From: Terriglobia bacterium
GTDB taxonomy: Bacteria > Acidobacteriota > Terriglobia > Terriglobales > Acidobacteriaceae
DNA: 64,000 nt
Direction: 5' to 3'
Assembly: GCA_020073185.1 (NCBI GenBank)
Contig: JAIQFT010000015.1
Location: 1 to 64,000 of the forward strand
Shown: in pieces, positions 41,906 through 59,335 of the stretch
Layout: every line of letters starts with the position of its first letter
Position numbering within the stretch: the first letter of the stretch is position 1
Position numbers and translations under genes: made by a program
Notes under the pieces: generated by a model
Seen by the model: the letters and a program-made list of their open reading frames with translations, nothing else
Database searches by the model: none
What the model was told of the DNA's origin: nothing

Positions 41906-41933
41906 ACACCAGGTGGGATTGACTCAGACGCGC

Positions 41934-42878: not shown

Positions 42879-43650
42879 AGCGCACGCGGCCGGCGAACAC
42901 GCGCTGCGCGTGCGCGGCGTGGACTTCTCCTACTGCACGGCGGCGAACGACTCCAAGGCGCTGTACTCCGGGTTCGCCCTCGACATCGAGCAGGGCTCGG
43001 TGGTCGCGCTCATGGGCGCCAGCGGCTGCGGCAAAAGCACGCTGGGAAAAATGATGGCCCGCATCATCAAACCGACCGCGGGGCGTATCGAGTGGTCGCC
43101 GCAGTTCAGCAAGCGTGCCGACGTGGTCTACATGGACCAGCACCCGATGAACAGCATCTTCCCGTGGCAGACGGTGCGCGGCAACCTGGAGTACCCACTC
43201 GAAAAATTGGGATGGAGCGAACTGGAGAGCCAAGCGCGGGTTGCGTATCTGGCTTCCTTGTTCCGGCTCGATGGCATTTTGCATTCGCTGCCGGCGCAGA
43301 TTTCCGGCGGCGAACTGCAACGGCTGGCGTTGGCGCGCTGCCTGTCGTGGAGGCCCCCGCTGGTCATCCTCGATGAACCCTTCTCCGCGCTCGATCGCGA
43401 CGTCAAGACCAACATCATCCACGCGCTCCACGCGCTTGCCACCAAGGATGGCATGACCGTGGTGCTGATCACGCACAACGTCTCCGACGCGCTCGCCATC
43501 GGCATGCGCTACGTGATCGTCGGCGACCGCCCCGTGCGGATCATGTCCGACATGGAATTCAAGAGCCCGCATCCGCGCGAACGCGGCACGCTGGATTACG
43601 ACACCATGGAGAAGGCGCTCATCGCCTGCATCCGCGATGGACTGGTGTAA
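42847..43650 (+). CDS. ABC importer ATP-binding protein
   Basis: 267 aa, SsuB/TauB-type ATPase. Walker A GASGCGKST near residue 50, signature SGGELQRLALARC near 145 and Walker B LVILDEPFSALD near 165 are present, plus an H-loop His in LITHNVSDA. ATG 42847 lies within the 3' end of the binding-protein gene. It powers uptake through the permease encoded next. Confidence 0.93.
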   Translation: MLTVLSTQRARAHAAGEHALRVRGVDFSYCTAANDSKALYSGFALDIEQGSVVALMGASGCGKSTLGKMMARIIKPTAGRIEWSPQFSKRADVVYMDQHPMNSIFPWQTVRGNLEYPLEKLGWSELESQARVAYLASLFRLDGILHSLPAQISGGELQRLALARCLSWRPPLVILDEPFSALDRDVKTNIIHALHALATKDGMTVVLITHNVSDALAIGMRYVIVGDRPVRIMSDMEFKSPHPRERGTLDYDTMEKALIACIRDGLV

Positions 43651-43656
43651 CCCCTC

Positions 43657-44436
43657 ATGCCGAGATTGACCAAGCCGCTGCGCAAGCCGACGCGAGTGAT
43701 CGCGCCGCTGCTCTTGCTGCTGGCTGCCTGGGCGGCGGTGGCCGGCTTTCGTTTGGTGGACCCGATCGTGCTGCCCGCGCCCTGGAGCGTGCTGCGCGCC
43801 GTCAGCGGCATGGTGCGGGACCGCATCGTCGGCGACGTTGCGCTGACGCTGGGCCGCGTCTTGGGCGCTCTGACGATAGCGGGCGCGGTGGGAATTCCTG
43901 TCGGCCTGTACCTGGGATATCGCCAGCGCTGGTACCAGATGGTGGAAGGTCCGCTGCACGCGCTGCGGTCCATCCCGGCTTCGGCGCTGTTTCCGCTGTT
44001 TCTGATCATTGTCGGCGTCGGAGAAACCTCCATCGTTGCCCTCGCCGCGTATCCCAGCCTGCTGGTGATTCTGGTGAACACGGTGACCGGCGCCACGCTG
44101 GCCAACAAGCGGCGTCTCTACCAAGCCAAGCTGTTCGAGCTCAGTTCGTTTGAGACCATCACCGACATCGTCTTTTACGAGGCCCTGCCCAGCGTCTTCG
44201 ACGGCGTGCGCACCGCCGCCTCTTACTCCATGGTGCTGGTGATTGCCGTGGAGATGTTCGTCGGGCTGGGCGAGCGCGGACTGGGGCGCGCGATTTACGA
44301 GTACCAGGCGACCTACCGCATTCCCGAAGCCTATGCTGCGGTCATCGTGGCGGGCGCCATCGGCATCCTGCTGAACCTGGTGGTCAACACGCTGCAAAAC
44401 CGCATGCTGCGCTGGCTACCAAACGTGCACGAATAA
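43657..44436 (+). CDS. ABC importer permease
   Basis: 259 aa with five or six hydrophobic segments, of the BPD_transp_1 family (SsuC/TauC). The coupling-helix EAA region is around YEALPSVFDGVRTAASYS. It starts 6 nt after the ATPase gene, completing a binding protein-ATPase-permease set. It ends at a convergent junction with the cytochrome cluster. Confidence 0.92.
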   Translation: MPRLTKPLRKPTRVIAPLLLLLAAWAAVAGFRLVDPIVLPAPWSVLRAVSGMVRDRIVGDVALTLGRVLGALTIAGAVGIPVGLYLGYRQRWYQMVEGPLHALRSIPASALFPLFLIIVGVGETSIVALAAYPSLLVILVNTVTGATLANKRRLYQAKLFELSSFETITDIVFYEALPSVFDGVRTAASYSMVLVIAVEMFVGLGERGLGRAIYEYQATYRIPEAYAAVIVAGAIGILLNLVVNTLQNRMLRWLPNVHE

Positions 44437-44462: not shown

Positions 44463-45089
44463 CTACAGATGACAGACAACGCACAGCGACGAATTCTTAT
44501 TGGGCGACCGCAGGAGGTCGGCATCATTGTTGTCGTGGACCTCGTGACAGGTGGTGCATTGTACAGTGTTGGTGCGACCGAACAACTTTACCTGCCGGAG
44601 GACAACGGGCAACGCAGCCAGTTTCGGATCCTTCGTGGGGTCATGGGGAACGTCGACGGGATGCTCGTTCTGCAGGCCCCTGGGGACGCTGGATAAGAAA
44701 TCGGCTTTGGAGCCACGATTCATATCCGTGGTGGAGACTCCATCGTGACAGCTCGCGCACAGCATGGAGGACATGCGCACTTGCGTGTCGTCCCCAGGCA
44801 ATGCCGCACCCGCGGCTTTGCTGCCGGCCGCAGGCGCGTCGTAGCTTTGAAAGGTCCGGGAGAGCAATGCGCAGTCCCACAACAGGGTTGTGTCGCAGTT
44901 GCCTGCCTGCGCCGCGGGCGATGGCGAAGCGGTCGACGCGACATGGCACGTCGAGCAGCTTTGACCATTCAAATTGTGCTTTCTGCCGCTTTCACCAGCA
45001 TCCTGCGACCATGCGACGAGCGTGAAGAGCAGAACAATCACAAGGCCCAGGCTGCGCGGGAGATTCGTCAGCTTGCCTCTGACGCACAT
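44463..45089 (-). CDS. Periplasmic tetraheme cytochrome c (copy A)
   Basis: 208 aa with a signal segment (LGLVIVLLFTLVAWSQ) and four CxxCH motifs: CSTCH, CASCH, CTTCH and CVVCH, the last at the extreme C-terminus (CHL). A perfect GGAGGTGATTCC precedes the ATG. It is paralogous to the 52979-53608 gene: both share SSxLCxSCHDGV-like, HPVxxxHDPTK and NTVQCxxCH segments. Last gene of the minus-strand cluster. Likely a periplasmic electron shuttle. Confidence 0.9.
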   Translation of the reverse strand: MCVRGKLTNLPRSLGLVIVLLFTLVAWSQDAGESGRKHNLNGQSCSTCHVASTASPSPAAQAGNCDTTLLWDCALLSRTFQSYDAPAAGSKAAGAALPGDDTQVRMSSMLCASCHDGVSTTDMNRGSKADFLSSVPRGLQNEHPVDVPHDPTKDPKLAALPVVLRQVKLFGRTNTVQCTTCHEVHDNNDADLLRSPNKNSSLCVVCHL

Positions 45090-45292
45090 GGAATCACCTC
45101 CGGCAGCCGATCGCAGATTTCCGATGAAGAATGCCGATTTCGGGCTGGCGAATTACCGGCAACGGATTTTATATTCCGCATTGACTCCCTCCCGCATCCC
45201 CTTTGGACCTGGCAGCCGCTTGCACTGTCATCGTGAACTTCTCTTGCGCGATCGAAGTCTTCCTTTCGGAGTCGGTCACAGGCGACTGTTCC

Positions 45293-47223
45293 TCAGACCG
45301 GATTGCGATGGCACGCCGCGCACTCGGTTGGCGTGCGTTTGAATTCGGTCACCGTCTTTCCCTCAACCAGCTTCACATTCTTGTGACAAGCTGCGCATTT
45401 CACGTCACGATGCTTGCCGAGAAGCGGGAACCGCGTTTCCCTTCCGTGGTCGAACAGCGACGGCACCCACCGCCCACTGCTGTGGCAGTCAGCGCAGGGA
45501 GTGATTCCGCCGGCCCGGGCGAATTGACCAAGGTGATAATCCTGGTGGCATCGCTCGCATTTACTGGGGGCAGATTTGAAGTCCACCAACTTCAGCGGAA
45601 TATCCGGCTGCGCCGGCTTGTGACAATTCACGCACGCGGTGGTGGCGTGCTTTCCGAGTAGCGGAAAGCCGTCCACGGAATGCGGGAAGCTCATGTCTTT
45701 CCAGGACTCTGGCGAGTGGCAGAGCCGGCATTCCATGGTGCTGCCATCGGCGCCTGCCTGCATGAGCCGGCTGAACTGCCCGCGGTGCGGATCCTGGTGG
45801 CAGGCGGTGCAGGAGCGATCTTCAAAGCGGTAGCGCGCCACGCTCTTCGGGTCAGTCCCGACAATCGGTTTGTGACAGTCGGAGCACTTAACCGCAACGT
45901 GCTTGCCGGTCAGCGGGAACGCCGTTGTACTGTGTCGCGCCACCGTGAATGTGGATGGCCGGAAGCCTTGCACGGAATGGCAGGTTTCACAACGGTTGAG
46001 GAGCGGAGCGGCGGCGAACTGGCGCCCGTGAGCGTCCTTGTGGCAGTCGGCACACTGGGCAAACTTGATGCGGTATACCGTCGCCTTGCCCGCCGGAATA
46101 TGACAGCGCTCGCAGCCCACCGTAGCATGCTTGCCTTGCAGCGAGAACTCGGTTTTCGCGTGTTCCAGCAGGCCGAATTTCGCCGGCTTGAATCCTTCGA
46201 CCGTGTGGCAGGCGGAACACTCGCCAGCGTCGGCGCGCTTGGCGAATTGCCCGCTGTGCGGATCGGGGTGGTGACAATCGGAGCACTTCTGGAACGCGAT
46301 CGGCTTCTTGAAGTCGCCGGCCACGTGGCATTGACCGCAGCGCAGCGACGCATGCCTGCCCAGCAAGGGGAACTTCGTGGTCGCGTGATCGAATCTCGCG
46401 GCCACCGCCTGCATCGAAACCGACCTCCAGCCGGCGGTGCTATGGCACGACTGGCAGGCGGTGGCGAATTTGCCGCGATGGGGATCCGTATGGCATCCCG
46501 TGCAGCCATCGAACACCAGCCCAGTCCAGCGCGGCGGGCCGCCTCGCTCCGCCGGCGTGTGGCATTTGTCGCAGCTAACCCGCGCGTGCGCTCCGGTCAG
46601 CGTGAAGTGCGTGCGCGCGTGGTCGAAGTTCGGTACCGCCTTCCAGTCGCTGGGGTTGTGGCACTGTTCGCAGTTGCGGCCGAAATGGCCGCGGTGCTGA
46701 TCGTTGTGGCACGCGGCGCACTCGCGCGACAGGCCGAGGAAGGTCCGCCTCAGATCCTTGACCCGAATCTGCGGCTTCTCGCTTGCCACGATGTTCTCCG
46801 GCGCATGGCAGCGGCTGCATGTCAGCGCCGTATGTTTGCCGGTGAGCGGCCATCCTGTCTTGCTGTGGTCGAACAGCGGCTGCGGCGGTTCCCACCGGAT
46901 CAGCGCGAAGCGCTCGCCATTGTGCTCGGAGTGGCACGTGGAGCAGCTTGGACTGCCGGCGGTTTTTCCCGCCACGCGCGCGTGCATGCCACGTCCGGCC
47001 GCGATCCTGATCGCAATTTCGGTGTGGCAATCAAGACACTTCGTCGCCTGGCCGCCCAGCCGATGGCAACTGGTGCAATTGGTGGCGCCGTTCAGGAAGC
47101 TATGTGCCTTCGACAGCGGTCCGGGAGCGAGTTGGGCCGAGGCGTACATGGAAAAAAAAAGCAGGTCAGCACGGCGACCATCGCGATCGCCTTTGCACCT
47201 CGTAGTTGAGCGAGCTTGGTCAT
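45293..47223 (-). CDS. 23-heme cytochrome c, frame-shifted at its signal peptide
   Basis: The body (ATG 47149 to 45293) contains 23 CxxCH motifs in 618 aa, with no axial-ligand shortage as His is abundant. Six full triheme modules repeat (CxxCHxDxHxGxF, then CxxCHxxxxW, then FDHxxTxFPLxGKHxxxxCxxCH), preceded by hemes 1-4 and ended by heme 23. On its own this frame lacks a signal peptide. ATG 47223, overlapping the stop of the upstream gene (TGATG), encodes one (AMVAVLTCFFF), but in another frame. One added T in the run of nine at 47152-47160 would join them (LTCFFFSMYASA-QLAP). Indel error or slippage. Confidence 0.88.
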
Positions 47224-49100
47224 CAGTTATTCGGGTATCTATACGGGTTGTGATTTTCGCCGTGGCAGGTCAGAAAACAGAGACCGGAATTCGTCCCGGT
47301 ACTCAGGTAAAGCAGTAGACCGCTGCTGCTGGGCCGCACGATCGCAGTGTCGAAATTCACCAGGCTCTTGGTGGTGGCGGCTAACCCCCCTCCTTGAATT
47401 CCATGCGCCGCATGGCAGGTGGAGCAGGCAGTGCGCTCCTCGACAATGTGCATCGAGTGCCCACTGCCAGATGTAAAACTCCGGTTCTGCAGGATGCTGT
47501 TGGTGATGTCGTGGCACTTGTCGCAAAGGGCATAGGTGCCCGTCGTCCCGCCGGTGTACCTGACGCCATTGCCTGGCGGGTTTTCTACCTCATAACGGCG
47601 CTCGAGCAAGTGCGGATAGGCCGATCCATGCGGTCCGTTGGGACCCGTGCCGCCGGCACCGCGGGCTCGGTCATTATTGTGGCAGTCGCCGCAGTAGATG
47701 TAGGTGCCTGGGCCGAGGCTGCGGCCAGTGCTGCCATCCAAATTCACAATGGCAGGGCGCAGGCTGGGGGTCGCCGCCGCCGTCAGGTACCGAGGCTGCG
47801 TGACCGGGTGCCGCGCCAAGCCGGTATTGAAATCCAGCCGTACATTGTTCGGGTCAGCCAGGCGGCTGAACGTCAGCCGCACGGGCGTCCGGCCGTACAC
47901 ACTGTAGCCGGCGCCATCTTGAGGTTTGTTGGTGCTGTTGGCGTGACACTTGAAGCAGATCTCGTACTCGTTGCTGGCGGGGCGCAGCGCGATGGCGCCG
48001 GTGGCCTGGTCCACGCCGGAGGCGCCCAGGAGGGGGGACTGCAGCGCCGGTGGCACGTTGCTGCCGCCGGTGTTGGAGGCGGCGTGCGAATTGTGGCAGT
48101 CGACACATTCAGAGTGACGATTGCCATTCAAAGGAAACGCATCCTCGGCCGCGTCGTGCAGGCCGGTAACGGTTATTACCGGGTGGCTGTACGTCTTGCT
48201 GAATTCCCCCATGATATCGGCGATCGCCGGACTCAAGTTGGTGCCGCTGTGGCATTGGCGGCACGCCTCTTCTTCGGGGCCGCGCAGCAGGCGAGCCGCG
48301 GCGCCGGCGGGAGCGTTGTGCGACTGGTGGCAGTTGAGGCAGGCATCCGAGGCTACGTCGCCGTAGGGACCAAACATGGCGCCGCCGGCGGTGGCGTTGC
48401 CGGAGGTGCGGTGGGCGCTGCTGGTCCAGCCGTTCAAGGCGTTCGGCTGCGGCCGGGAAGGATCGTGGCAGGCCAGGCAAATCGCGCTATTGGAGTTGGG
48501 ACGGACCAGGAACATGCCTGCGATGGGATCCAGGTTCGGTGTGTGCGGATCATGACAGGTCACACATTCGACGTTACCATTCCGCAGTTTTACGGTCGGA
48601 TCGCCTGTAACCGGCGGGCTTAGGAACAGGTTGGGAGAGAGTTCGCCGTTGTTGGTGAGGGTGAAACTGACGGGATGGTCATCGCTCAGGTCGGTCGTCA
48701 GGTTCTTGGCGGGACTCAGAGCACCGGTTGTCGTGATCAGCCCGCTTGTGATGGTCTGTCCGAGGGCGACGGTTCCGTCGTGGCAACTCAAGCACAGCTT
48801 CGAGGTCTGGCTGGGCATCGCCGCCGCCGCTTTCATCGTGGAGCTGCTGTATGGATTGTAGGACTGCACCGGCAGGAAGCGATTCCACAGCGGCTGGACC
48901 TCGGGAAACACGTTGTGCGGCGCATGGCAGAAAATGCAGACTTGCGTTTCCGAAGACTGCACGGTTCCCGGACCGCTGGCGGACAGGTTGTGCGACGAGT
49001 GGATGACGTCCGCCGTACCTGCCGACACCGGCCCGGCCAGCCAGCTCGCGAATATCAGGACGAGGCCGCCCCCGATTACGGCCCCGGCTCGCGCCCGCAT
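47223..49100 (-). CDS. Multiheme cytochrome c, 11 CxxCH plus one CxxxCH
   Basis: 625 aa with a signal peptide (GGLVLIFASWLAGPVSA). Heme motifs in order include CIFCH, CLSCH, CVTCH, CLACH, CLNCH, CRQCH, CVDCH, CFKCH, CGDCH, CDKCH and CSTCH. The last one, CFLTCH, has an extra residue. Several HPV, DPHTP and NSHA segments match the doubled-CXXCH and cytochrome_c3-like repeats of surface electron carriers. ATG 49100 overlaps the stop of the NHL gene (TGATG). Probably periplasmic or outer-surface and part of the conduit. Confidence 0.92.
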   Translation of the reverse strand: MRARAGAVIGGGLVLIFASWLAGPVSAGTADVIHSSHNLSASGPGTVQSSETQVCIFCHAPHNVFPEVQPLWNRFLPVQSYNPYSSSTMKAAAAMPSQTSKLCLSCHDGTVALGQTITSGLITTTGALSPAKNLTTDLSDDHPVSFTLTNNGELSPNLFLSPPVTGDPTVKLRNGNVECVTCHDPHTPNLDPIAGMFLVRPNSNSAICLACHDPSRPQPNALNGWTSSAHRTSGNATAGGAMFGPYGDVASDACLNCHQSHNAPAGAAARLLRGPEEEACRQCHSGTNLSPAIADIMGEFSKTYSHPVITVTGLHDAAEDAFPLNGNRHSECVDCHNSHAASNTGGSNVPPALQSPLLGASGVDQATGAIALRPASNEYEICFKCHANSTNKPQDGAGYSVYGRTPVRLTFSRLADPNNVRLDFNTGLARHPVTQPRYLTAAATPSLRPAIVNLDGSTGRSLGPGTYIYCGDCHNNDRARGAGGTGPNGPHGSAYPHLLERRYEVENPPGNGVRYTGGTTGTYALCDKCHDITNSILQNRSFTSGSGHSMHIVEERTACSTCHAAHGIQGGGLAATTKSLVNFDTAIVRPSSSGLLLYLSTGTNSGLCFLTCHGENHNPYRYPNN

Positions 49101-50149
49101 CACGGCATACCCCTTCCGCGTGCGCGCACAAACTGGAACACCTGTACACGCCGATTCAGGGCATCCGCGACAAAGATGCGGTCGTGGGGGTCAATCCAGA
49201 CTCCGGCGGGCAACTGGAACTCGCCGGGTCCCGTGCCGGTGTTCCCGAAGTAGTACAAGAAATGGCCGTCGCCGTCGAAAATCTGCACGGCTTCCAGCAG
49301 CGCTTCGGCAGTGTAGATGTCGCCTTCGCTGTCCACGGCCAGTCCTTTGGGCCGGCTCAGGGACCCGGTGCTATTGCCCAGCTGGCCAAACACCCGCTGC
49401 AGCCTGCCACTGGGATCAAATCCCTGCACGCGGAAGTTCATGGCATCCAGGACCAGCAGCTCGCCGTCGCGCCAGGCGAGGTCAGTTGGGAAATTGAGTT
49501 GGCCGGGAGCGCTGCCGCGCTCTCCGAAACTGCCCAGCACGTTGCCTTCAAGGTCGAGGATGAAGATCCTGTGGCGCAGCGTGTCGCTCAGGTAGATGCG
49601 GCGCTGCGCCGAATCCACGACAATGCCGGTGGGCCGCTTGAAGATGCCCTCCCCGCCTCGCTCACCGAGGAAGCGGCGGAAGTGGAGGTCGCGGTCGAAA
49701 ACGAAAATATGGCCGCGCAAGGAATCGGTGACGTAGATGTTGTCGTCGGCGTCGGTGGCGACGCCGATCGGAGATTCGAAGCGCCGATGCCGCCCGCCCT
49801 CCAGGTGATGGTACTTCTTCTGGGCGAAGTCAAAGATGTGCACCATTTGCGCGCCCGGATCGGTGACGATGATCCGTCCGTGGGAATCGGTGGTGATCGC
49901 GTAAGGTCGCACCAGGTGGCGGTACTTGGGCGCGCCCGCCACGAAGTCCACCAGCTTGTTCCAGAACGAACGTGTGGGATTGACGTCTTTTTCCGAGGCG
50001 ATGGAACGCAGGTAATCGATGCGCCGCCCGCCGGCGATGACCGCGGGCGCGGGCACGTCGGCGCAAAGGCCATTCGGCGCTGTCGCAAGACACAGCCACA
50101 CCGCGACCACCAGGCGCGCACCAGCTCGAATTATTTTTCGTCCAGCCAA
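49100..50149 (-). CDS. NHL-repeat six-bladed beta-propeller protein (copy B)
   Basis: About 349 aa from TTG 50149, 4 nt after the barrel gene stop; the open frame back to 50221 overlaps that gene. A signal peptide (LVVAVWLCLATAPNGLCA) is followed by six NHL repeats such as SPIGVATDADDNIYVTD and RPKGLAVDSEGDIYTAE. NHL propellers commonly sit next to multiheme cytochromes in metal-reducing bacteria, where they act as scaffolds. It is paralogous to the 53664-54767 product. Confidence 0.88.
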   Translation of the reverse strand: MAGRKIIRAGARLVVAVWLCLATAPNGLCADVPAPAVIAGGRRIDYLRSIASEKDVNPTRSFWNKLVDFVAGAPKYRHLVRPYAITTDSHGRIIVTDPGAQMVHIFDFAQKKYHHLEGGRHRRFESPIGVATDADDNIYVTDSLRGHIFVFDRDLHFRRFLGERGGEGIFKRPTGIVVDSAQRRIYLSDTLRHRIFILDLEGNVLGSFGERGSAPGQLNFPTDLAWRDGELLVLDAMNFRVQGFDPSGRLQRVFGQLGNSTGSLSRPKGLAVDSEGDIYTAEALLEAVQIFDGDGHFLYYFGNTGTGPGEFQLPAGVWIDPHDRIFVADALNRRVQVFQFVRARGRGMP

Positions 50150-50153
50150 TTTC

Positions 50154-52919
50154 TCAAAACACCGTGAATTCACGAACCACGCGGAAAAAGAAACGATTGC
50201 GCTGGAACACATCGACGGCAAAATTCTGGTCGTGGGACAGGTAGCCGGCGTCCAGCGTGATGGAGCGGAACCGGTATCCGGCGGATACCTCCCACTCGCG
50301 ATATGAATTGGTGACGGCGCCCTGCAGCCTCTGCCGGCTGGTGAGCCAGGCCACGCGTCCTGTCAATTTTTGAACCGGGTGGACGGCCAGTGCCGCGCTG
50401 CTCCAAGTAGCGCCGGTGGGCACTACCAACGTGCCCGGGAAGGCCCCCAGCAACAGGCCGCCCTGGCCGGAGGAAACCAACTGCAGGCGGGGATCGGCTT
50501 GAAAAGTCAGACCGTCGCGGATGTTGTGAGAAACGGACAGCTCAGCGGACGGATGGACTACCGAAACTGTTACCCCGTTGAGGACGGAGGAATATTGCGC
50601 GGCCAGGAAATTGTACTTGTCATTTTCGCGGTCGTAGGTCGCGCGCACCTTCCAGCGTTCCCAGAGCGAGCGCGACAAGGCCAAGTTCGCCCCGGCGCTG
50701 CGGTCGTGCACGTAGGTGCTGCCGGTGACATCTTGCAGGCTGCCGTTGACCCCGGCCGTCAGCTCCATAGAGGCCAGCGAGCCGAGGGTGGCGCTGGCGT
50801 TCGCCCGCTGGCCGTAGGTGGTGTTCGATCCCGCGGCCGCGTAGGTGAAATTTCCGCCGTTCGCGGCGTAGTAGGCCTGCAGACGCCAGAACCGGAAGCG
50901 GTGAGTCAAGGAAAGGCTGCCCTGTGCGGAGGTCAATCCGCTGGCGGAGCTTGCAATCGTGCTGGACAGCGGCGCATGCGTGGTTTCCCGCGTGACGTCG
51001 GCCTGCGCACGCAAGTCGTTGGTGAACGCGTACTGCGCCGAGCCGTTGAAACTGATCATCCGCAAGTCAGCCTGACTGGGCACTAACAGGATTGGCTGGG
51101 CGGAGGTTAAGCTGTTTCCTCCGGTAACCTGTTCGAGGAAGGCGCCCACAATGTTGTCGGTCACTCCAGCGCGGAAGGAGAATGTCAGTTTCTTGCTCGG
51201 CCGGAGGAACGAGCTGCCGGTCAAAAACCGGAAGCTTTGGTCGAACGGGCGCCCCTGGACCTGGTTCCGTGCCTTGGTTGCACCGGCCACAATGGCGGTG
51301 CTCAGCCACTCGCCGACCTCGCGATCGGCCGAAACGCGAACTTCCTGATCGTTGCGTTTGTAGAGATAAGGAGCTTGCTTAGGATCGAAGATGTTGATTA
51401 GGTCCTGCGTCGAGCGTTCTAACTTGTAGCGCGATTGCAGGTTCCAGCCCGACAATTTGTAGGTGACGTCCACCGAGAACAAACGCCCGCCGTCGACCGT
51501 CTTGGGGGCTAGGGCGGTTAGAGGCTCATAGTTGTCGGAGTACTTGGAATAACTCACTGCCAGCTCGGGAACGTTTTTCAAGTGGAGCTGCCAACTTGCT
51601 CCGAGCGAGTCTTGAAAGGTGTTGGCTTCCAGCCCGGCGAGCCGGTCGAGCGGCCCAAAGGTCACCAACGCGCGGTTTAGGCGGTGGTACGACACCGTGA
51701 ACGGTGTCGCCCCACCGCCAAATAGAGTGGTAGTGACGGAAACGCCATTTCCATCGGGGAACACGCCTTCGCTGGACAGGCGGCCCAAACTGCCTTGTGG
51801 CTTGACCGTGAAATTCAGAATCTGTGGGCTGCGGACAAAGCCGGTCGCATCCAGACGCAAGCTCCCCACCGGGGAATCCTGTTGTGACACATACCCGTTG
51901 CTGGTGGAAGCCTGGTAGTAGCCGCCGGTGACGGCACCTGACACCTGCAGGCCATAGGCGCCGCCATTGCGTGGCGCCGGGACACGTTTTTCCGCTGGCA
52001 GGGTCGCCCTGATGGCCTCTTCCTCGCGTCCCAGTTCGACGTCCTTGGCTTTGCCGGTTACGCCGACACCCAGCCGCACCGGCGGCGCAACCGGATTGGT
52101 TTCGGGAACGCCGGCCGGCGCCGCTATCTCGGCTGTTTCAGCCGCCAAGGCCGGCGGACGCGAGAGTACCCCCTCCATATTGACGGGTTCAGGGACTTCC
52201 AGCGGAGGCGCCGCTATCTCTGCGGTGACGGCCGACAACGCCGTTGGCCGCGAGATTAAACCTTCGATATTGACTGGTTCCGGCGGTGGGACGTTGCCAG
52301 CAGGCTCCGCGGTGGCCGCTAACGGGGGGTGTTCAAGTTTTGCTTCGACTTCATTCGTTTCAGCTGCCCCCGCCGCCGTGCCGTGTTCAAGTTCATCCAC
52401 CTTGCGGGAGCGGTGCCGTATTCGCGCCCAGAATCCTCCCGATGCGGCCGGCGCCGCCCGCGGCGACACTGTGATTGGGGCAATTCGCAGCCTCAGCTTC
52501 AACCCGTCGGGCGCCAGCGCGATCTCCATGTCGCGCTTGGGGGCCACTTCCACGCTGATCCGCGTCACGGGTTTGCCACGCAGATACCCATGATCGATGT
52601 GGACTGACTTGATTTCAGCCGTATTCACTGCGATGGAATGGATTGCACTCAATTCTGGACTCGGGATCGAATCCGGCACGTCAACGACAAATCGCTCCGG
52701 CTTGGAGAGCTGCATGGTGGTGTATTGCATGGGACCGCTGGTGGTGATCTCAATCTCCACGCCGCTGCTGCCGCGGATGAGGTCAATCCGCTCCACGACT
52801 AGCGGTCCGGCGGCGATGCTCTCTTGCGGACGAATGATGGCGGTCGCCGCCACGCTGGCGGTGATCAGCAGAATCAGGACTGGCAGCGCTGCCAGCGTCC
52901 TGCGCTTGCGGGAACTCAT
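50154..52919 (-). CDS. AMIN-domain fused outer-membrane beta-barrel protein
   Basis: 921 aa. Signal peptide, then an AMIN domain (residues about 42-150: VVERIDLIRGSSGVEIEITT, KPERFVVDVP and RISVEVAPKRDMEIAL), a Pro/Ala-rich linker with a duplicated unit (150-335) and a roughly 580-residue region of alternating amphipathic strands with aromatic girdles ending RVVREFTVF. That length fits a large (24-28 strand) porin such as MtrB/OmbB/PioB. AMIN domains bind peptidoglycan, so it would anchor the barrel to the wall. It is the best candidate for the outer-membrane conduit among the cytochromes. Confidence 0.8.
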   Translation of the reverse strand: MSSRKRRTLAALPVLILLITASVAATAIIRPQESIAAGPLVVERIDLIRGSSGVEIEITTSGPMQYTTMQLSKPERFVVDVPDSIPSPELSAIHSIAVNTAEIKSVHIDHGYLRGKPVTRISVEVAPKRDMEIALAPDGLKLRLRIAPITVSPRAAPAASGGFWARIRHRSRKVDELEHGTAAGAAETNEVEAKLEHPPLAATAEPAGNVPPPEPVNIEGLISRPTALSAVTAEIAAPPLEVPEPVNMEGVLSRPPALAAETAEIAAPAGVPETNPVAPPVRLGVGVTGKAKDVELGREEEAIRATLPAEKRVPAPRNGGAYGLQVSGAVTGGYYQASTSNGYVSQQDSPVGSLRLDATGFVRSPQILNFTVKPQGSLGRLSSEGVFPDGNGVSVTTTLFGGGATPFTVSYHRLNRALVTFGPLDRLAGLEANTFQDSLGASWQLHLKNVPELAVSYSKYSDNYEPLTALAPKTVDGGRLFSVDVTYKLSGWNLQSRYKLERSTQDLINIFDPKQAPYLYKRNDQEVRVSADREVGEWLSTAIVAGATKARNQVQGRPFDQSFRFLTGSSFLRPSKKLTFSFRAGVTDNIVGAFLEQVTGGNSLTSAQPILLVPSQADLRMISFNGSAQYAFTNDLRAQADVTRETTHAPLSSTIASSASGLTSAQGSLSLTHRFRFWRLQAYYAANGGNFTYAAAGSNTTYGQRANASATLGSLASMELTAGVNGSLQDVTGSTYVHDRSAGANLALSRSLWERWKVRATYDRENDKYNFLAAQYSSVLNGVTVSVVHPSAELSVSHNIRDGLTFQADPRLQLVSSGQGGLLLGAFPGTLVVPTGATWSSAALAVHPVQKLTGRVAWLTSRQRLQGAVTNSYREWEVSAGYRFRSITLDAGYLSHDQNFAVDVFQRNRFFFRVVREFTVF
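52117..52284 (-). repeat. 90-bp tandem duplication in the AMIN-barrel linker
   Basis: Copies start at 52117 and 52207, period 90 bp, and encode about 30-residue units PEPVNIEGLISRPTALSA and PEPVNMEGVLSRPPALAA with TAEIAAP ends. The copies differ by silent and conservative changes, so the duplication is not recent. Confidence 0.7.
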
Positions 52920-52978
52920 CCGTGCCTCGGCCTAAAATTTGCGGGAGGGAGGCGAACTCCCTCCCCACGTTGTCCTGG

Positions 52979-53608
52979 TTAGAGGTGGCAAGTGGTGCAG
53001 AGAGCGGAATTGGTATTCGCTTTCCGCAGGAACGACCCGTTGGTCGGGTCGTGCGTGGTGTGGCACGAGGAGCACTGGACGGTGTTGGCGGAGCCGTACA
53101 GCGTCAGTCCCCCGCTGGTGACGCTCGACACCGGCGCCAATTGCGCGTTCTTCGTCGGATCATGCGACATGTTGACCGGATGGTCATTCTGCAAGCCGAA
53201 CGAATTTGCGGGATTTCCGATGGACACCGAACCCGTCGGCCCCGTGTTAGCTGTCAAGTTGGGGGTGGTCACACCGTCATGGCAGGACATGCAGAGCAGC
53301 GAGTTCATGCGTGCGTCAGTGTTTTGCAGGGGGGTGGCTCCGCCGATCTCGCTCGCCTTGTTTTGCATGCTCGGCGAATCGTAAACGCCGAACGTCTGCG
53401 TGGAGAAGTCGCGGTCCCAGAGCAGAATCTTGCCCGAAGCCGCGTTGGTGCCGCCGGTGGCCGAGGCTCCGTCGTGCGACGCGTGGCAACCCTTACAGCC
53501 CTGGGCGTTAATGTCGTGCTTGGAGCCAATGACCTTGGACGTCTGTGCCCAGGCTGCGCTGGTGATCACAAATGCTGCCAGCACAACCAGGACGATTGAG
53601 CACTTCAC
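52979..53608 (-). CDS. Periplasmic tetraheme cytochrome c (copy B)
   Basis: 209 aa from GTG 53608, chosen for AAAGGAGGACTC upstream; the 53734 extension is not signal-like. Signal peptide (SIVLVVLAAFVITSAAWAQ). CKGCH, CMSCH, CSSCH and CTTCH are the four heme sites, the last at the C-terminal CHL. Shares NTVQCSSCH, HPVNMSHDPTK and the Asn-rich tail with the 44463-45089 protein. It follows the NHL gene by 55 nt. Confidence 0.9.
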   Translation of the reverse strand: MKCSIVLVVLAAFVITSAAWAQTSKVIGSKHDINAQGCKGCHASHDGASATGGTNAASGKILLWDRDFSTQTFGVYDSPSMQNKASEIGGATPLQNTDARMNSLLCMSCHDGVTTPNLTANTGPTGSVSIGNPANSFGLQNDHPVNMSHDPTKNAQLAPVSSVTSGGLTLYGSANTVQCSSCHTTHDPTNGSFLRKANTNSALCTTCHL

Positions 53609-53663
53609 GAGTCCTCCTTTTGGTCCACAGTCGTGCAGACCAGGTGTTTTCGTGGGGATTCGA

Positions 53664-54767
53664 CTACGGGGCCGTCCCGGTCCGCACAACCGCCGCTTGT
53701 TCCGGGAAATACTGAAAAATCTGCAAGCGTCCATGCCATTGGTCGGTTACATAGATCCGGTTGGATTTGTCGATTGCCATGCCGGCAATCAGAGCAAACT
53801 GGCCGGGATTCGTCCCGTAATCGCCAACCGCCAGCAGCGGACGCCCGTCGGGAGTCAAGATCTGGAAATTGTTGAATTCGGCGTCGGCGACGTACACATG
53901 CCCCTCGCTATCCACGGCGATGCCCTTGGGACGGACAAAATCACCTGGGGTAACACCATGTCGGCCGAACGCGCGCACGAATTTGCCGGCGGAGTCGAAC
54001 ACCTGCACCCGCTGGTTCCAGGTGTCGGTGACAAACACCTGGCCATCGGCACCGACCGCCACATTGCTCGGGGCGGAGAATTTGCCGGGTTCGCCTTTGC
54101 CCGGGGTACTGGGCCCTCCGATATGCTGCAGCCGACGAAACGAAGTGGTATCGAAGACCGCCAGTCGGTTGGCTTTTGCATCGGCGACGTACAAACGATG
54201 GAGGCGGTTGTCGAGCGCCATGCCGGCGGGTCGCTGCAGGTCGTCCATGCCAAACACCGCCAGCACCTCGCCATCAGGGCGGAAACAGGTAATCTGGTGC
54301 AGCGCCGCATCGGAGACGAACAGGCGGTCCTCGTCATCGATGGCCAGTCCAATGGGGAGCGCCAGGCGCGCGGGAGGCCGGTCGCCACGATACTCCACTC
54401 GCTTCTGTTCCAGGTTGAAGATGAACACCGCGTGATTGGCGGCATCGGCCACATAGATCTGGCGCTTGGAATCGACGGCCACGCCATAGGGCGATTTCAA
54501 GACTTGTCGCCGTGCCGGAGGCCTGGCCCCAGCGGCGCGATCCATCCAACTCCGCTTGGGAACGCCGACAACGTCGTCCGTTGCAGTGATCTGGGCGAGA
54601 TAGGCGATCCGGCGCCGTTGCGGAGGTTGCGGCCACACCAGGTTGCTGGTATCGACCGGTTCCTCCTTCTTTTGCTTCTTACTGCCGGCGCACAGCAGGC
54701 TGGCTGGAACCAGCAGACACAACGTCAGGGATGCGCGGAATAGATATAGATAGCTTCTGCGGCTCAT
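53664..54767 (-). CDS. NHL-repeat six-bladed beta-propeller protein (copy A)
   Basis: About 367 aa from ATG 54767 (the open frame to 54890 adds a non-native tail). Hydrophobic signal SLTLCLLVPASLLCAG is followed by a Lys-rich segment and PQRRRIAYLAQI. Six NHL blades such as SPYGVAVDSKRQIYVAD, APSNVAVGADGQVFVTD and RPKGIAVDSEGHVYVAD complete a propeller. First gene of the minus-strand cluster. Probably an extracytoplasmic scaffold or calibrator. Confidence 0.88.
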   Translation of the reverse strand: MSRRSYLYLFRASLTLCLLVPASLLCAGSKKQKKEEPVDTSNLVWPQPPQRRRIAYLAQITATDDVVGVPKRSWMDRAAGARPPARRQVLKSPYGVAVDSKRQIYVADAANHAVFIFNLEQKRVEYRGDRPPARLALPIGLAIDDEDRLFVSDAALHQITCFRPDGEVLAVFGMDDLQRPAGMALDNRLHRLYVADAKANRLAVFDTTSFRRLQHIGGPSTPGKGEPGKFSAPSNVAVGADGQVFVTDTWNQRVQVFDSAGKFVRAFGRHGVTPGDFVRPKGIAVDSEGHVYVADAEFNNFQILTPDGRPLLAVGDYGTNPGQFALIAGMAIDKSNRIYVTDQWHGRLQIFQYFPEQAAVVRTGTAP

Positions 54768-55642
54768 GAGTGGCGCTCTCAAGTGAGTTGCAACTCGGAA
54801 CAAAACCTGCCATGCGACCGACCGCCCTTCCGTCCGGCTCCTGCGGTGTCCCTGCGCTGCCTGGTCCCTTGCTGCACGCAGCGAATACACACCGATGTAC
54901 AGGACGATTGGCGTAGGTCTGGGGGGTGACCTTCGCAGCCGCCAGACTGGCCAGGTGACGCTAAATAATCAAAACGCCACGCGAAGACGCGTAGCGCGAG
55001 GCCAGTTCCGGATTCGTGGAGCGTTGCTCACCACAAACACGTGGTGCCAGATTAACCTCGGAAATGCCGACGCACACAGGGACATAAAGTCTCTAGGGAC
55101 GAATTTCTCTAGGCGAGTTCGGCGCGACGCCCGGAACGTCAATGCTCGTCCCTAATTGCTGGCAGTCATTGCCGCAGTTTCTTGCCTAACCAGCCGGCTG
55201 GAATGCCCCATAGCCGCTTCGGGTTACTACTTGGGTAATTGTTCTCCGGGCTTTCAGCATGGTATAGAGCCCTACACTTTGCTGGAGTTTTGGTAGCCGT
55301 GGGGATTCGGTACCCCAGCACCGCGACCGGTTCGCAACGCCTTATGTGCACCCATCACCTGTGCCTCGCAACTGTCGGGCATTGTTGCCGCAACGTTCTT
55401 GTAGGTGGGCTGGGGCGCAGGTCAGACGACGGCTGTCGACGTGACCGCGAATGAGAAGCCGGGAACCTTCTACCTTATATGGCTTTCATGTCAAGGGACG
55501 CGCCCCGATTGCAGCACCTGCCACACCCCGGTGAAGGAAGGCTCAGTGACGTTCCAGCGACCCGGCCACGATGGTGCATGGTCTGCGGCTCCGACACTGG
55601 CCGCAAGAGTCGTGTTCCGATCTAAGTGGCAGTGGGGGAGTC
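54768..55642. other. Divergent intergenic region, 875 bp
   Basis: Divides the minus-strand cytochrome cluster from the plus-strand respiratory genes and must hold promoters for both. No strong -35/-10 pair is seen. A frame at 55405 runs open into the next gene region and includes GTRPDCSTCHTPVKEG at about 55498-55545, a lone heme motif that may be the leftover of a cytochrome gene. Confidence 0.5.
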
Positions 55643-56344
55643 ATGCGGGTCAGGAAAGCTGGGCGCGTTGTCCATGTGGCCGCGCTGGCGCTCACGCCGC
55701 TCCTGCTGCGCGCGCAGGAGATCTCCCGGTTTCAGAGGGACCCAGTGGAGCATTTCGGCGCGCGGTTGCTGGCGGCCGTGATCGTGATCGGAATCGCAGT
55801 CGTTCTCTACTCGCTGGTGCGCTACCGTGGCCGGACGTTGAGCGCCGCGTCGTGGGGGGTTCTCGCCCTGGGTGTCGGGGTCCTTCCGGTGGTTTCGTCG
55901 GGGGTCGGCACCGTTCTCGTCTTTGAACGGGCGGAGAGAGTCGAGTTTTGCGAATCCTGCCACCTGACGATGCAGGCGTTCGTCAGCGACATGAAGAATC
56001 CGAAGAGTGAGAGCCTGGCGGCCCTGCACTACAAGAACCGGTACATCCCCGACGATCAGTGCTACATCTGCCATACTTCATACGGCCTTTTTGGCACGGT
56101 GGAGGCGAAGAAGGAGGGCATGCACGACGTGTGGGTGTACTACACGCGCACCTTCAAGTTGCCGGTCAAGCTGCGCCATCCGTATCCCAACACCGATTGC
56201 CTGAAGTGCCATGCGGAATCCGTCAAGTGGCTGGGCGTGCACGACGAATTCAAGGCTTCCCTGTTCTCCGGCGAGACCAGTTGCATGCAATGCCATGGGG
56301 CGACGAATCCCGCGCACAACGTTCCAGGGGAAGTGAAGCCATGA
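55643..56344 (+). CDS. NapC/NrfH/CymA-like membrane tetraheme cytochrome c
   Basis: 233 aa; ATG 55643 follows GGGGGAG. Three hydrophobic segments near residues 8-24, 40-60 and 72-95 precede a periplasmic domain with CESCH, CYICH, CLKCH and CMQCH. CESCHLTMQAF resembles the first heme of NrfH, where the Met is a distal ligand. Such proteins oxidise menaquinol and hand electrons to periplasmic multihemes. It overlaps the next gene by 4 nt (ATGA). Confidence 0.85.
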   Translation: MRVRKAGRVVHVAALALTPLLLRAQEISRFQRDPVEHFGARLLAAVIVIGIAVVLYSLVRYRGRTLSAASWGVLALGVGVLPVVSSGVGTVLVFERAERVEFCESCHLTMQAFVSDMKNPKSESLAALHYKNRYIPDDQCYICHTSYGLFGTVEAKKEGMHDVWVYYTRTFKLPVKLRHPYPNTDCLKCHAESVKWLGVHDEFKASLFSGETSCMQCHGATNPAHNVPGEVKP

Positions 56345-56937
56345 ATAAAGTTGCGACGAAGCTGGAGCGAATTGAATCCGATCCCATCATCGCCCGGCGG
56401 CTGCTGATTGCGGCGCAACTCCTGGCGCTGGTGGCATACGGGCTGGGATTACAGTTTTTGATGAACACCACGGGCGGTACGCTGTTCGTGTTTTCCGTGA
56501 TCGCGCCTGCGCTGGTGGCGGTTGGAATCGCCGTTCTGCTGGGGGTGCTGGCGTGGAAGTTCCTGCGGAGCCATAGCCTGTTCTACTTTGAGGAATTCGA
56601 TCCAGGACAGTTCATCTTCCAGCAGGGCGACACAGGCGACTGCGCCTACTTCATCCACAGCGGTGAAGTGGAGGTGGTGACCGGATCGGGCGGGCAGGAA
56701 CAGCTCGTGGCGAAACTTCAGCCGGGCCAGTATTTTGGCGAGATGGCGTTGATCACCAGCCACCCTCGCAACGCCACCGTGCGCGCGACTACGAAGACGA
56801 CGGTTGCGGTGCTGGGGAAGGAGAATTTCCTCACCCTGGTCAGCGTGATCCCTTCCACCCGCGAAGACATTATGAATACTGTCAACAAAAGGGCCATGCA
56901 ACAAGCCGCAGGTCTGTTACGGCGTACCGACCGCTAA
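56341..56937 (+). CDS. Membrane-anchored cyclic-nucleotide-binding protein
   Basis: 198 aa, ATG 56341 overlapping the stop of the cytochrome gene. Two hydrophobic segments (about 22-42 and 50-70) precede one CRP-like cNMP-binding domain (residues about 85-180). The phosphate-binding cassette is FGEMALITSHPRNATVRA. There is no DNA-binding or enzymatic domain. It could sense cAMP or c-di-GMP and act directly on the adjacent electron-transfer proteins. Confidence 0.82.
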   Translation: MNKVATKLERIESDPIIARRLLIAAQLLALVAYGLGLQFLMNTTGGTLFVFSVIAPALVAVGIAVLLGVLAWKFLRSHSLFYFEEFDPGQFIFQQGDTGDCAYFIHSGEVEVVTGSGGQEQLVAKLQPGQYFGEMALITSHPRNATVRATTKTTVAVLGKENFLTLVSVIPSTREDIMNTVNKRAMQQAAGLLRRTDR

Positions 56938-56958
56938 AACAACAAGGAGAACGAGAAG

Positions 56959-57294
56959 ATGAGCGCGTACATGTTTCGAACCGCAGCGTCGATCCTGGTA
57001 ATCATTGTGGTGGCAATCACGCCCGCGCTGGCGGCGGATGTCGCCGCCGGCCACGCCGTGTACGACAAGAAGTGCAAGATGTGTCATGGCGCCAATGGCG
57101 AAGGGAATCCGGCAATGGCCAAGATGTTTAACACCACCATCCAGCCGCTGGGTTCGCCTGAGGTACAGAAGATGAGCGACGCCGACCTGAAGAAAGTCAT
57201 CAAGGAGGGCAAGGGCAAGATGAAACCGCCTGCCGGGTTGACTGACGCCGACATTGGCAACGTGATCGCTTTCGTTCGCTCGCTGAAGAAGTAA
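56959..57294 (+). CDS. Monoheme class I cytochrome c
   Basis: 111 aa. Signal peptide (ILVIIVVAITPALA), heme site CKMCHGANGEG near residue 38, and candidate axial Met in KGKMKPP near 92. AACAAGGAGAACGAG precedes the ATG. A soluble periplasmic electron carrier of the cyt c551/c552 type, 21 nt after the cNMP gene. Confidence 0.92.
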   Translation: MSAYMFRTAASILVIIVVAITPALAADVAAGHAVYDKKCKMCHGANGEGNPAMAKMFNTTIQPLGSPEVQKMSDADLKKVIKEGKGKMKPPAGLTDADIGNVIAFVRSLKK

Positions 57295-57599
57295 CTTGCT
57301 GCCGCGACAACTCGCGTGCGCAGGTTAAGAACAACGGGGGCGTGCCACGGCATGGCCCCTGATGATAACCGCGATGGTGACAAACGCCGTTGGCACGCCG
57401 ATGGTGATGCTCCCGACGCGCAATCACTATCGGGTTGTATTATTGCGGAAGGCAGTGTAGGGTGCGAATCAAACCACTGGGTCGTTGGGCGACCCAATTC
57501 GCGTCGGGAGCCATTTCCAATTTGCCTGACTCGATGCAGCCGCGCGGGGTATTCTGCGTCGCGAGTTCATGAGGGCCGGCGTAGGAACGTGTGGGGACA
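57295..57599. other. Non-coding spacer, 305 bp
   Basis: Separates the cytochrome gene from the NDH-2 gene. No gene, strong hairpin or repeat was found; a promoter for the dehydrogenase may lie here. Confidence 0.5.
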
Positions 57600-59213
57600 A
57601 TGCGCACTGGGGAAAAACGCATTCTGATTCTAGGCGGCGGTTTCGGCGGCGTGTATACCGCCCGTCACCTGGAAAAGCTCCTCAAGCCAAATGAGGCGGC
57701 GCTCAGCCTCGTCAACCGCGAAAACTACTGGGTTTACCAACCGATGATCCCGGAGGTGATTTCCGGCTCGATCGGTCTCACCGACGTGGTCGCTCCCATC
57801 CGCCAACTGTGTTCGCGCACGGAGCTGGTGATGCGCGAGGTGGAAGCGATTGACCTGAGGAACCGGGTGGTGACGGTGAGTCCGGGGTTCCGCCCGCGGA
57901 AGATGGAACTCTCCTACGATTACTTGGTGATCGCGCTGGGCAGCACCACCAAGTTTTCCGGCATGCCCGGGATGCTGGAGCACGCCCTGCCATTCCGGAA
58001 CCTGGCCGATGCAATGTGCCTGCGCAACCACGTCATCAACGTGTTGGAGGAAGCCGAAGTCGAACCGGACTCGGAGATTCGCAGCAAGTTGTTGACCTTC
58101 GTGGTGGCCGGCGGCGGTTTCTCGGGCGTGGAGGTGATTGCCGAACTCAATGATTTCATCCAGCAGGTGAAGCGGCGATTCCCACGGCTGCGCAAGGAGA
58201 AGCACCGCTGCCTGCTGATTCATTCCGGAGACCGGATCTTGCCGGAAGTGACCGCGGGACTGGCCGAGTTTGCTGAGCAACTCCTGCACCGGCGCGGAGT
58301 CGAAATCCTTTTGCACGACCGGCTGGTGGCGGCGACCTCGGAGAAGGCCATTCTGCGCTCGAAGATGGAAATCCCCACCAAGACCGTCATCTCCACCGTT
58401 CCCGCGCAGCTACCCCCGGTGCTGCAAAAGCTGGATTGCACGTACGACAAAGGCAGGTTGCTGGTCAACGGCAACCTGGAACTGGCCGGGTATGAAGGCG
58501 AGGTCTGGGCGCTGGGCGATTGCGCCTCGATCACGACGATATCGGGCCAACCCGTGCCGCCGACAGCGCAGCACGCCGTCCGCGAAGCCAAGGCGGTGGC
58601 AAGCAACATCGTCGCCGCCATCCAGGGGCGGCCCCAAAGCGCGTTCGCGTTTGAAGCCTTGGGCAAGCTGGGCTCTCTGGGGCATTACTCGGCGGTCGCG
58701 GAGACTTTGGGCATGCGCGTGTCGGGATTCCCGGCGTGGTGCCTATGGCGAACCGTCTACCTGATGAAAGTTCCCACCCTGAACCGCAAGGTGCGGATTT
58801 TCCTGGATTGGGTACTCTCCGTGGTGTTTCCTCCCGACTTGGTGGAAGTGCGGACCGCGATGGAAAGCGGCATCTGCAAGCAGCACTTCGAGGCGGACGA
58901 GATGGTCTTCTTCCAGGGTGATGTCGGCGACAAGGTGTACATCATCGAGTCGGGTGAGTGCGAGGTGCTGCAGGAACGCGACGGGGTCCAGACGGTGGTC
59001 GCCACGTTGCGTAGCGGCGACTACTTCGGGGAAATGGCAGTGCTGATGGATTGCAGCCGCAACGCGACCATTCGAGCTCGCACCCGGATGGATGTGCTCT
59101 TGGTTTCCAAGAATGATTTCGACCTGCTGAAGGCCAGCGTGCCGGCGTTCTACCAGGTCTTCAGCGAACTCGCGAAGAGGCGTTCCACAGAGGCGATGAA
59201 GAGTTCGGCTTAA
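57600..59213 (+). CDS. NDH-2-type NADH:quinone oxidoreductase with C-terminal cNMP-binding domain
   Basis: About 537 aa (ATG 57600; GTG 57591 is an alternative). FAD/NAD dinucleotide motifs LGGGFGGVYTARHLEK near residue 10 and VVAGGGFSGVEVIAEL near 170, with WALGDCA near 300, define a non-proton-pumping NADH dehydrogenase. A membrane-binding stretch lies around 370-410. Residues about 420-520 form a cyclic-nucleotide-binding beta-roll with FGEMAVLMDCSRNATIRA. This fusion is uncommon and implies allosteric control of quinone reduction. Confidence 0.88.
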   Translation: MRTGEKRILILGGGFGGVYTARHLEKLLKPNEAALSLVNRENYWVYQPMIPEVISGSIGLTDVVAPIRQLCSRTELVMREVEAIDLRNRVVTVSPGFRPRKMELSYDYLVIALGSTTKFSGMPGMLEHALPFRNLADAMCLRNHVINVLEEAEVEPDSEIRSKLLTFVVAGGGFSGVEVIAELNDFIQQVKRRFPRLRKEKHRCLLIHSGDRILPEVTAGLAEFAEQLLHRRGVEILLHDRLVAATSEKAILRSKMEIPTKTVISTVPAQLPPVLQKLDCTYDKGRLLVNGNLELAGYEGEVWALGDCASITTISGQPVPPTAQHAVREAKAVASNIVAAIQGRPQSAFAFEALGKLGSLGHYSAVAETLGMRVSGFPAWCLWRTVYLMKVPTLNRKVRIFLDWVLSVVFPPDLVEVRTAMESGICKQHFEADEMVFFQGDVGDKVYIIESGECEVLQERDGVQTVVATLRSGDYFGEMAVLMDCSRNATIRARTRMDVLLVSKNDFDLLKASVPAFYQVFSELAKRRSTEAMKSSA

Positions 59214-59335
59214 AGGGCACGCATAAGATGATTGGCGAATGAGGGTCCCGCAAAGAATGACGCCGCCAGTTTCATAAGAATCGTTGTTGCGGTGCTCACG
59301 GTCCCATTCTGCTGCCATTGTTCTGTGGGGGAAGC

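Follow-up and report, generated by a model that had tools for sequence, protein, structure and literature searches.

OmcE is a tetraheme cytochrome in which one of the hemes is ligated by a histidine of the next subunit (PMC12954529, PMC12307469), and its filament structure is represented by PDB entry 7tfs (PMC12954529). Homologs of OmcE across bacteria and archaea have already been published, and a 2025 review describes the assembly, anchoring and redox coupling of cytochrome nanowires to membranes as relatively little known (PMC12307469). The omcS-companion (osc) operon of Geobacter sulfurreducens has been assigned roles in folding (OscH), secretion (OscEFG) and morphology (OscD) (PMC13194489), and is also described in PMC12977616. 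Other related systems include MtrCAB of Shewanella (6r2q), with a large barrel beside multiheme cytochromes, OmbB-OmaB-OmcB, with a periplasmic octaheme OmaB and a dodecaheme OmcB, and PCC3, a porin with cytochromes of very many hemes (He et al., 2017, PMC5566968). Here we describe a multiheme cytochrome cluster in a 64,000-nucleotide window of a Terriglobia bacterium (GCA_020073185.1, JAIQFT010000015.1, positions 1 to 64,000), which is part of contig C15 of a 100% complete assembly of 4.66 Mb in 121 contigs. Seven genes (A–G) on the minus strand at 44463–54890 face four genes (H–K) on the plus strand at 55571–59213 (Table 1). With moderate confidence, we read the A–G block as an OmcE-type cytochrome-nanowire cluster in which the 12-heme cytochrome C is an adaptor between conduit and filament.

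An earlier reading of the same DNA, here called the original prediction, had listed these eleven genes, and all were present at the positions and on the strands it gave. Its heme counts were borne out by CXXCH motifs (A 4, B 23, C 11 plus one CX3CH, F 4, H 4 and J 1), compared with means of 0 to 0.26 in shuffles of the same residues. Pfam likewise agreed with its domain names (NHL in D and G, AMIN in E, NapC/NirT in H, cyclic nucleoside monophosphate (cNMP) binding in I, cytochrome c in J, and NDH-2 with a cNMP domain in K), and the two TGATG overlaps, at 49100 and 47223, both exist. Homology to OmcE, on which the original prediction was silent, was its main omission.

In a search of PDB sequences, F was recovered as a full-length homolog of OmcE (7tfs, E = 2e-11) and also matched 9yuq, a “putative multiheme cytochrome c” of 16 chains (E = 4.4e-15), in both cases over residues 48/49–250 of 251. 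A 36-member family profile, for which 35 of 57 candidate tetrahemes were joined with window F, matched 7tfs at 8.3e-47 and 9yuq at 6.4e-44, with the next best entry at 4.6e-8; OmcS (6ef8) was aligned to this profile over only 36 positions (E = 2.6e-6). Four heme and four additional histidine columns are common to F and OmcE, F being shorter between the first histidine and the first heme. In an alignment of ten sequences (OmcE, F, A, the N-terminal domain of C and six of 12 F relatives), the four heme histidines and three of the further histidines were common to all, and the fourth, in a CHxxH motif after the first heme, was present in every sequence except A; F and the C domain therefore have all eight columns and A has seven. 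Within the 36-member family seven of the eight histidines were invariant in the alignment, and the N-terminal histidine was found by rule in 34 members and by eye in the remaining two. By these sequence comparisons F is homologous to OmcE, with the set of four hemes and four further histidines conserved, and filament formation by F is proposed from this likeness.

The second tetraheme cytochrome of the cluster, A, is 38% identical to the F ortholog of a genome from the same genus (G699). It has CHVAS in place of CHxxH after the first CXXCH, and both copies of A in G699 are alike in this respect, pointing to a conserved variant in the genus. A second tetraheme without one of the conserved histidines is unusual.

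The 12-heme cytochrome C provides the second line of evidence. Its profile matched 7tfs over positions 18–219 (E = 7.6e-33), so that C can be described as an OmcE-like domain with eight further heme sites behind it, the last of which is CX3CH. We aligned window C with 11 of 12 relatives from the class (L050 was left out, being of the same genus as L048), and all eight OmcE-type histidines were invariant in these 12 sequences. The same holds for the CX3CH site and the 11 CXXCH sites, so the 12 heme sites originally predicted for C are correct. A scan of one genome set returned at least 550 relatives of C, of which the best 80 were analyzed by locus, and the neighborhood counts from these loci thus lean towards close relatives; the CX3CH site was present in 79 of the 80.

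Conservation of gene order was examined in 12 complete loci, which were reached through matches to the barrel gene E in 11 genomes that belong to other genera of the class. The order NHL2, tetraheme, barrel, NHL1, 12-heme was kept in all 12, one of which (L047) has a tetraheme open reading frame (ORF) without a BLAST match to F. The heme number of the cytochrome upstream of NHL2 is 16 in nine of these loci, seven in two and 12 in one, and seven of the 12 have a PpiC-type isomerase gene between those of the tetraheme and the barrel (Pfam-confirmed for one, L060). Among the best 80 C loci, an NHL gene stood directly upstream of C in 67 of the 69 with enough upstream DNA, preceded by a heme-free ORF of at least 550 amino acids in 51 of 62, and 43 of these ORFs end in F, W or Y. 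Where at least 8 kb upstream of C was available, an OmcE-like tetraheme was found in 49 of 50 loci, a second NHL gene in 48 and an isomerase in 19. The locus of the cultured Occallatibacter savannae (L073) has tetraheme, isomerase, barrel, NHL and 12-heme genes, and its second NHL gene is missing from the DNA examined. By record titles, the 80 loci span about a dozen phyla, including Acidobacteriota, Verrucomicrobiota, Planctomycetota, Bacteroidota, Pseudomonadota, Nitrospirota, Nitrospinota, Myxococcota, Calditrichota and Desulfobacterota; as metagenome bins make up the majority, individual placements may be wrong. By our own count, C was matched at E < 1e-90 in 63 of 200 genomes of the family and at E < 1e-80 in 17 of 297 genomes of the phylum of G299. 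The acidobacterial records with the cluster come, by their titles, from soil, peat and groundwater. In G699, genes A–G have the same order at 83–96% identity. A second copy of the cluster was observed on another contig of G699 (L211, L212), where its barrel gene is truncated at the end of the contig.

Neighborhoods of OmcE itself resemble the window block in part. OmcE was matched at E 0.001 in 90 of 141 genomes of the order of G589, which appear to be Geobacter-like from OmcE identities of up to 64%, and nine loci were fetched as 20 kb stretches. An NHL gene directly precedes OmcE in all nine, as it precedes the tetraheme in the window, and a heme-free, barrel-sized ORF of 742–809 amino acids directly follows OmcE in seven; in the remaining two the barrel-sized ORF comes after an NHL gene (L206) or after an ORF and an NHL gene (L205). 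An eight-heme cytochrome lies upstream in nine of nine loci and a nine- or ten-heme cytochrome in seven. The window differs from these loci in having C, the AMIN arm of E and the degenerate second tetraheme A. These barrel-sized ORFs gave a moderate profile match to E, which is suggestive of a relationship and no more, and homology of the two barrels was dropped as a claim. An ORF resembling ResB of cytochrome biogenesis, recognized by eye, was also seen upstream of OmcE (L201–L209).

The osc operon is similar to the window block in combining a filament cytochrome with a beta-propeller and channel-like proteins, OscD being presumably propeller-like, and an isomerase is shared only by the relatives of the window; this likeness is one of description. 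It differs in its hexaheme OmcS-type gene, as the window block has neither a six-motif gene nor an isomerase.

The original prediction had proposed an extracellular-electron-transfer gene set with an outer-membrane barrel, and structure prediction and the strong synteny are both in line with this. Of the two outcomes that it had named as refuting, a barrel region that does not model as an outer-membrane porin and genes unlinked in every relative, neither was observed. AlphaFold modeled most of residues 320–921 of E with confidence, with 28 strands of at least nine residues in this part, but not the AMIN domain and the linker. Foldseek placed MtrB first among its matches to the barrel (6r2q_B, E = 4.2e-12, TM 0.50 by target length), ahead of a siderophore receptor (E = 1.2e-8), and among the VIA-align matches shown the alignment to MtrB was the longest (449 residues). 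These matches make E, as modeled, a large outer-membrane barrel whose closest likeness by Foldseek is MtrB. The arrangement with AMIN had been singled out as unusual, and among the loci examined the fusion of AMIN and barrel was confined to this genus: it occurs also in G699 and in no other locus seen, and the barrels of 13 class relatives are open frames of 618–680 amino acids, too short to include the AMIN part. AMIN domains bind peptidoglycan, which suggests, by analogy, a cell-wall tether for E. Two kinds of matches to E were set aside as barrel relatives: many of the 37 matching genomes among 299 of the class match only within residues 1–300, where the AMIN part lies, and the window's own genome gives a secretin, whose AMIN domain is the nearest to that of E in this genome. 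A profile of E, from window E and all 28 loci above 80 bits with hand-chosen start codons, was strong only in acidobacterial-type loci (28 frames > 80 bits).

The closeness of E to MtrB bears on the type of conduit. The original prediction had likened the locus to MtrCAB and OmbB-OmcB, and in such a filament-free conduit C would be the surface reductase, B a heme chain through E, and F and A monomeric carriers. In its favor, both B and C are rich in hemes, and the barrel match is to MtrB. The membership of F in the OmcE family and the OmcE-like domain of C are at odds with it, as are the family models: the best score to TIGR03508 (MtrA/DmsE) among A, B, C and F was 51.5 bits (B) against a cut-off of 192.2, and the scores to TIGR03507 (OmcA/MtrC) were 16 bits for B and 18.4 bits for C, the highest of the four, against 209.3. 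The window also has NHL, AMIN and OmcE-like parts in addition to the barrel and multiheme cytochromes it shares with MtrCAB, and the block has no eight-motif gene that would correspond to OmaB. We consider a filament-free conduit rather unlikely, and an OmcE-type nanowire cluster the better reading of F and C. Identity with PCC3, raised by the high heme counts, was dropped on the basis of its description: PCC3 has a conserved five-helix inner-membrane protein, and the available text of PMC5566968 mentions no NHL or propeller protein and describes no OmcE-like part.

Another explanation, compatible with a nanowire cluster, concerns the barrel only, in that E could be mainly an export channel for filament cytochromes with no heme chain of its own. 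Such a channel has been proposed for OscEFG (PMC13194489), and the isomerase gene between tetraheme and barrel in over half of the class loci would suit this function. However, the MtrB-like barrel in Foldseek and the long multiheme cytochromes, B in the window and the 16-heme protein in most class loci, fit an electron path, and we judge export as the main role of E to be unlikely.

The 23-heme cytochrome B probably starts at the ATG in the TGATG overlap at 47223. Its signal peptide, read from this position, and its heme motifs are in different frames, the shift falling at a T9 tract (window 47140–47225, minus strand), which is why B is listed from 47149 without a signal peptide. In G699 the signal-peptide and heme parts of B are in one frame; sequencing error, decay and slippage cannot be told apart as the cause of the offset. 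As a side observation, a 1026-amino-acid ORF with 40 CXXCH motifs (L055:9214–12291; G000 contig C25, about 57214–60291) lies beside a 23-heme paralog of B (65% identity).

In the mechanism that we propose, quinol electrons would pass to H and J, on to B, through or along E to C, and from there into a wire of F, and flow in the inward direction is also possible. F, perhaps with its paralog A, would polymerize outside the cell as a tetraheme wire, and the barrel of E would sit in the outer membrane, where in this genus the AMIN arm may tie it to peptidoglycan. The 23 hemes of B could carry electrons across the periplasm to C at the barrel, whose OmcE-like N-terminal domain would form a socket for the first F subunit. 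The two NHL propellers may aid assembly or stabilize the complex, a guess by likeness to the role of OscD, and the divergent H-I-J genes may feed in quinol electrons. More tentatively, as we think it possible rather than probable, C could be a built-in socket whose OmcE-like domain and eight-heme part join the conduit to an OmcE-type filament in one continuous heme chain, a kit found in about a dozen phyla, with the barrel pinned to the cell wall by AMIN in this genus and the wire ended or modified by A.

Several observations weigh against a nanowire cluster of this kind. The AlphaFold model of F is poor, with a mean predicted local distance difference test (pLDDT) score of 49.6, which leaves an OmcE fold of F putative, and A, with one histidine missing, can be aligned with 7tfs in its final 37 residues only (E = 1.3e-5). 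C is absent from the nine 20 kb OmcE stretches, and the PpiC-type isomerase of many relatives is absent from the window block. The comparison of E with the barrel-sized ORFs near OmcE reached an hhalign probability of 90% over 264 columns only, and in the VIA-align ranking of matches to E, which is headed by a chitoporin (Z 17.7), MtrB comes only 27th (Z 16.0). In records from other than acidobacteria, the E profile finds L093, L118 and L125 alone, at 16–29 bits, so that barrels are recognized there by their size, their location and their C-terminal residue. Cytochromes related in sequence to filament formers are not necessarily filament formers themselves (PMC12977616), and in Geobacter the part played by OmcS and OmcE filaments is under dispute (PMC13194489; PMC11077965); for these two reasons our confidence in a nanowire cluster is no more than moderate.

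C with its OmcE-like domain is a concrete candidate for the joint between nanowire and membrane. The occurrence of the cluster across many uncultured lineages offers a genomic marker less ambiguous than a lone cytochrome match, and if filaments form, a Geobacter-type mechanism would be extended to acidobacteria. In the literature we found no title or abstract start that describes this cluster in acidobacteria, or a 12-heme cytochrome with an OmcE domain together with an AMIN-barrel, a search from which priority cannot be judged.

In the original prediction, the facing genes H–K completed a single chain from NADH through K to quinone, H-I-J, the conduit and the surface, under cNMP control. A–K do stand together in the window, and H passes PF03264, the N-terminal region of NapC/NirT (35.4 bits, cut-off 24.1), and falls below the model for NrfH proper (TIGR03153, 33.5 bits against a cut-off of 134.2). 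K is an NDH-2 by Pyr_redox_2 (119.3 bits, cut-off 26.1) and NDH2_C (34 bits, cut-off 27.7), with an added cNMP domain. However, in G699 the A–G genes, at the identities given above, are followed by a transketolase-like ORF, named by eye from its likeness to the window ORF at 59318, with no H-I-J-K between. H had no match at E 0.001 in the other three genomes of the genus, where K has only matches of about 30% identity. Six relatives of K (50–66% identity; from 46 genomes matched, own included) were examined, and none stood beside conduit genes or H-I-J in stretches that are cut by contig ends, one of which (L243) holds a 10-heme ORF. Within the DNA fetched for the 80 C loci there was no relative of H or K, one fragment of I, and J in five loci. 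H-I-J-K are thus, on this genomic evidence, loosely tied to the A–G cluster, K being a neighbor of it. We regard the single chain as very improbable, and cNMP control of electron transfer is a guess. The original prediction as a whole therefore survives as an extracellular-electron-transfer gene set with a barrel and conserved linkage, and is not supported in its type of conduit or in its one pathway from NADH to the surface.

Three loci of H were examined from 37 matched genomes, own genome included. The H-I-J unit is found again in G073 and G001, from two other genera of the class, and G034 has H and I without J. In G073 and G001 the unit stands beside a different conduit-like cluster (L259:2268–8376, L261:11372–17453), an association that speaks for the single chain and its cNMP control. 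This cluster comprises a 15-heme cytochrome (446–471 amino acids), a protein of 548–565 amino acids that is barrel-like by eye, one of 292–295 amino acids that in G073 matches TPR weakly, and a five-heme protein of 725–733 amino acids. H-I-J is divergent from it in G073, as from A–G in the window, and convergent in G001; in G073 a transketolase-like ORF follows H-I-J, as in the window.

Just upstream of H, a piece at 55507–55572 is identical at 14 of 22 residues (64%) to the 15-heme protein beside H-I-J in G073 and G001, and is likely a relic of a gene for such a cytochrome, as judged from sequence. The search gave E = 4.5e-5 over the window, with low-complexity filter and composition correction off and no shuffle control. 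The 15-heme query picks up A, B, C, F and H of the window as well, owing to the heme motifs they have in common with it and with better E-values for B (to 1.1e-14), and the case for the relic hence rests on identity and not on E-value. The bases behind the piece, in another frame, weakly resemble the continuation of the 15-heme protein (E = 0.07). An intact 15-heme partner of H-I-J was considered and rejected, as the genome of the window has no match to the 15-heme protein at E 0.001. The 725-amino-acid protein of the G073 cluster had no match in four genomes of the genus, a search without a positive control whose empty result shows nothing. The relic is on the strand of H, which differs from the arrangement in G073 and G001, and simple loss in place does not explain it. 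It is plausible that H-I-J arrived with a scrap of its former partner and now faces the nanowire cluster, with the strand of the relic left unexplained.

Table 1. Genes and gene remnant of the cluster and its facing genes, in window coordinates.
Feature	Positions	Strand	Basis or remark
A: second tetraheme cytochrome, paralog of F	44463–45089	−	heme motifs, alignment
B: 23-heme cytochrome, probable periplasmic heme wire	45293–47149	−	heme motifs
C: 12-heme cytochrome, OmcE-like tetraheme domain then eight heme sites	47223–49103	−	heme motifs, profile
D: NHL propeller 1	49100–50221	−	Pfam
E: AMIN (45–139), low-confidence linker (about 150–315), predicted outer-membrane barrel (about 320–921)	50154–52919	−	Pfam, AlphaFold, Foldseek
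F: OmcE-family tetraheme cytochrome, candidate filament subunit	52979–53734	−	probable GTG start 53608
G: NHL propeller 2, adjoins F	53664–54890	−	Pfam
Likely relic of 15-heme cytochrome gene, 22 residues	55507–55572	+	64% identity
H: NapC/NirT-type tetraheme membrane cytochrome, candidate quinol dehydrogenase	55571–56344	+	probable start 55643
I: membrane protein with cNMP-binding domain	56341–56937	+	start overlaps H stop
J: small monoheme cytochrome c, third gene of H-I-J unit	56959–57294	+	Pfam
K: NDH-2-like oxidoreductase with C-terminal cNMP domain	57591–59213	+	Pfam; neighbor of cluster

The probable start of F in Table 1 and that of I, probably the ATG at 56341, were read from the sequence. 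On the other side of the cluster, ORFs at 41799–44436 that by eye encode the substrate-binding protein, ATPase and permease of an ABC transporter head towards A.

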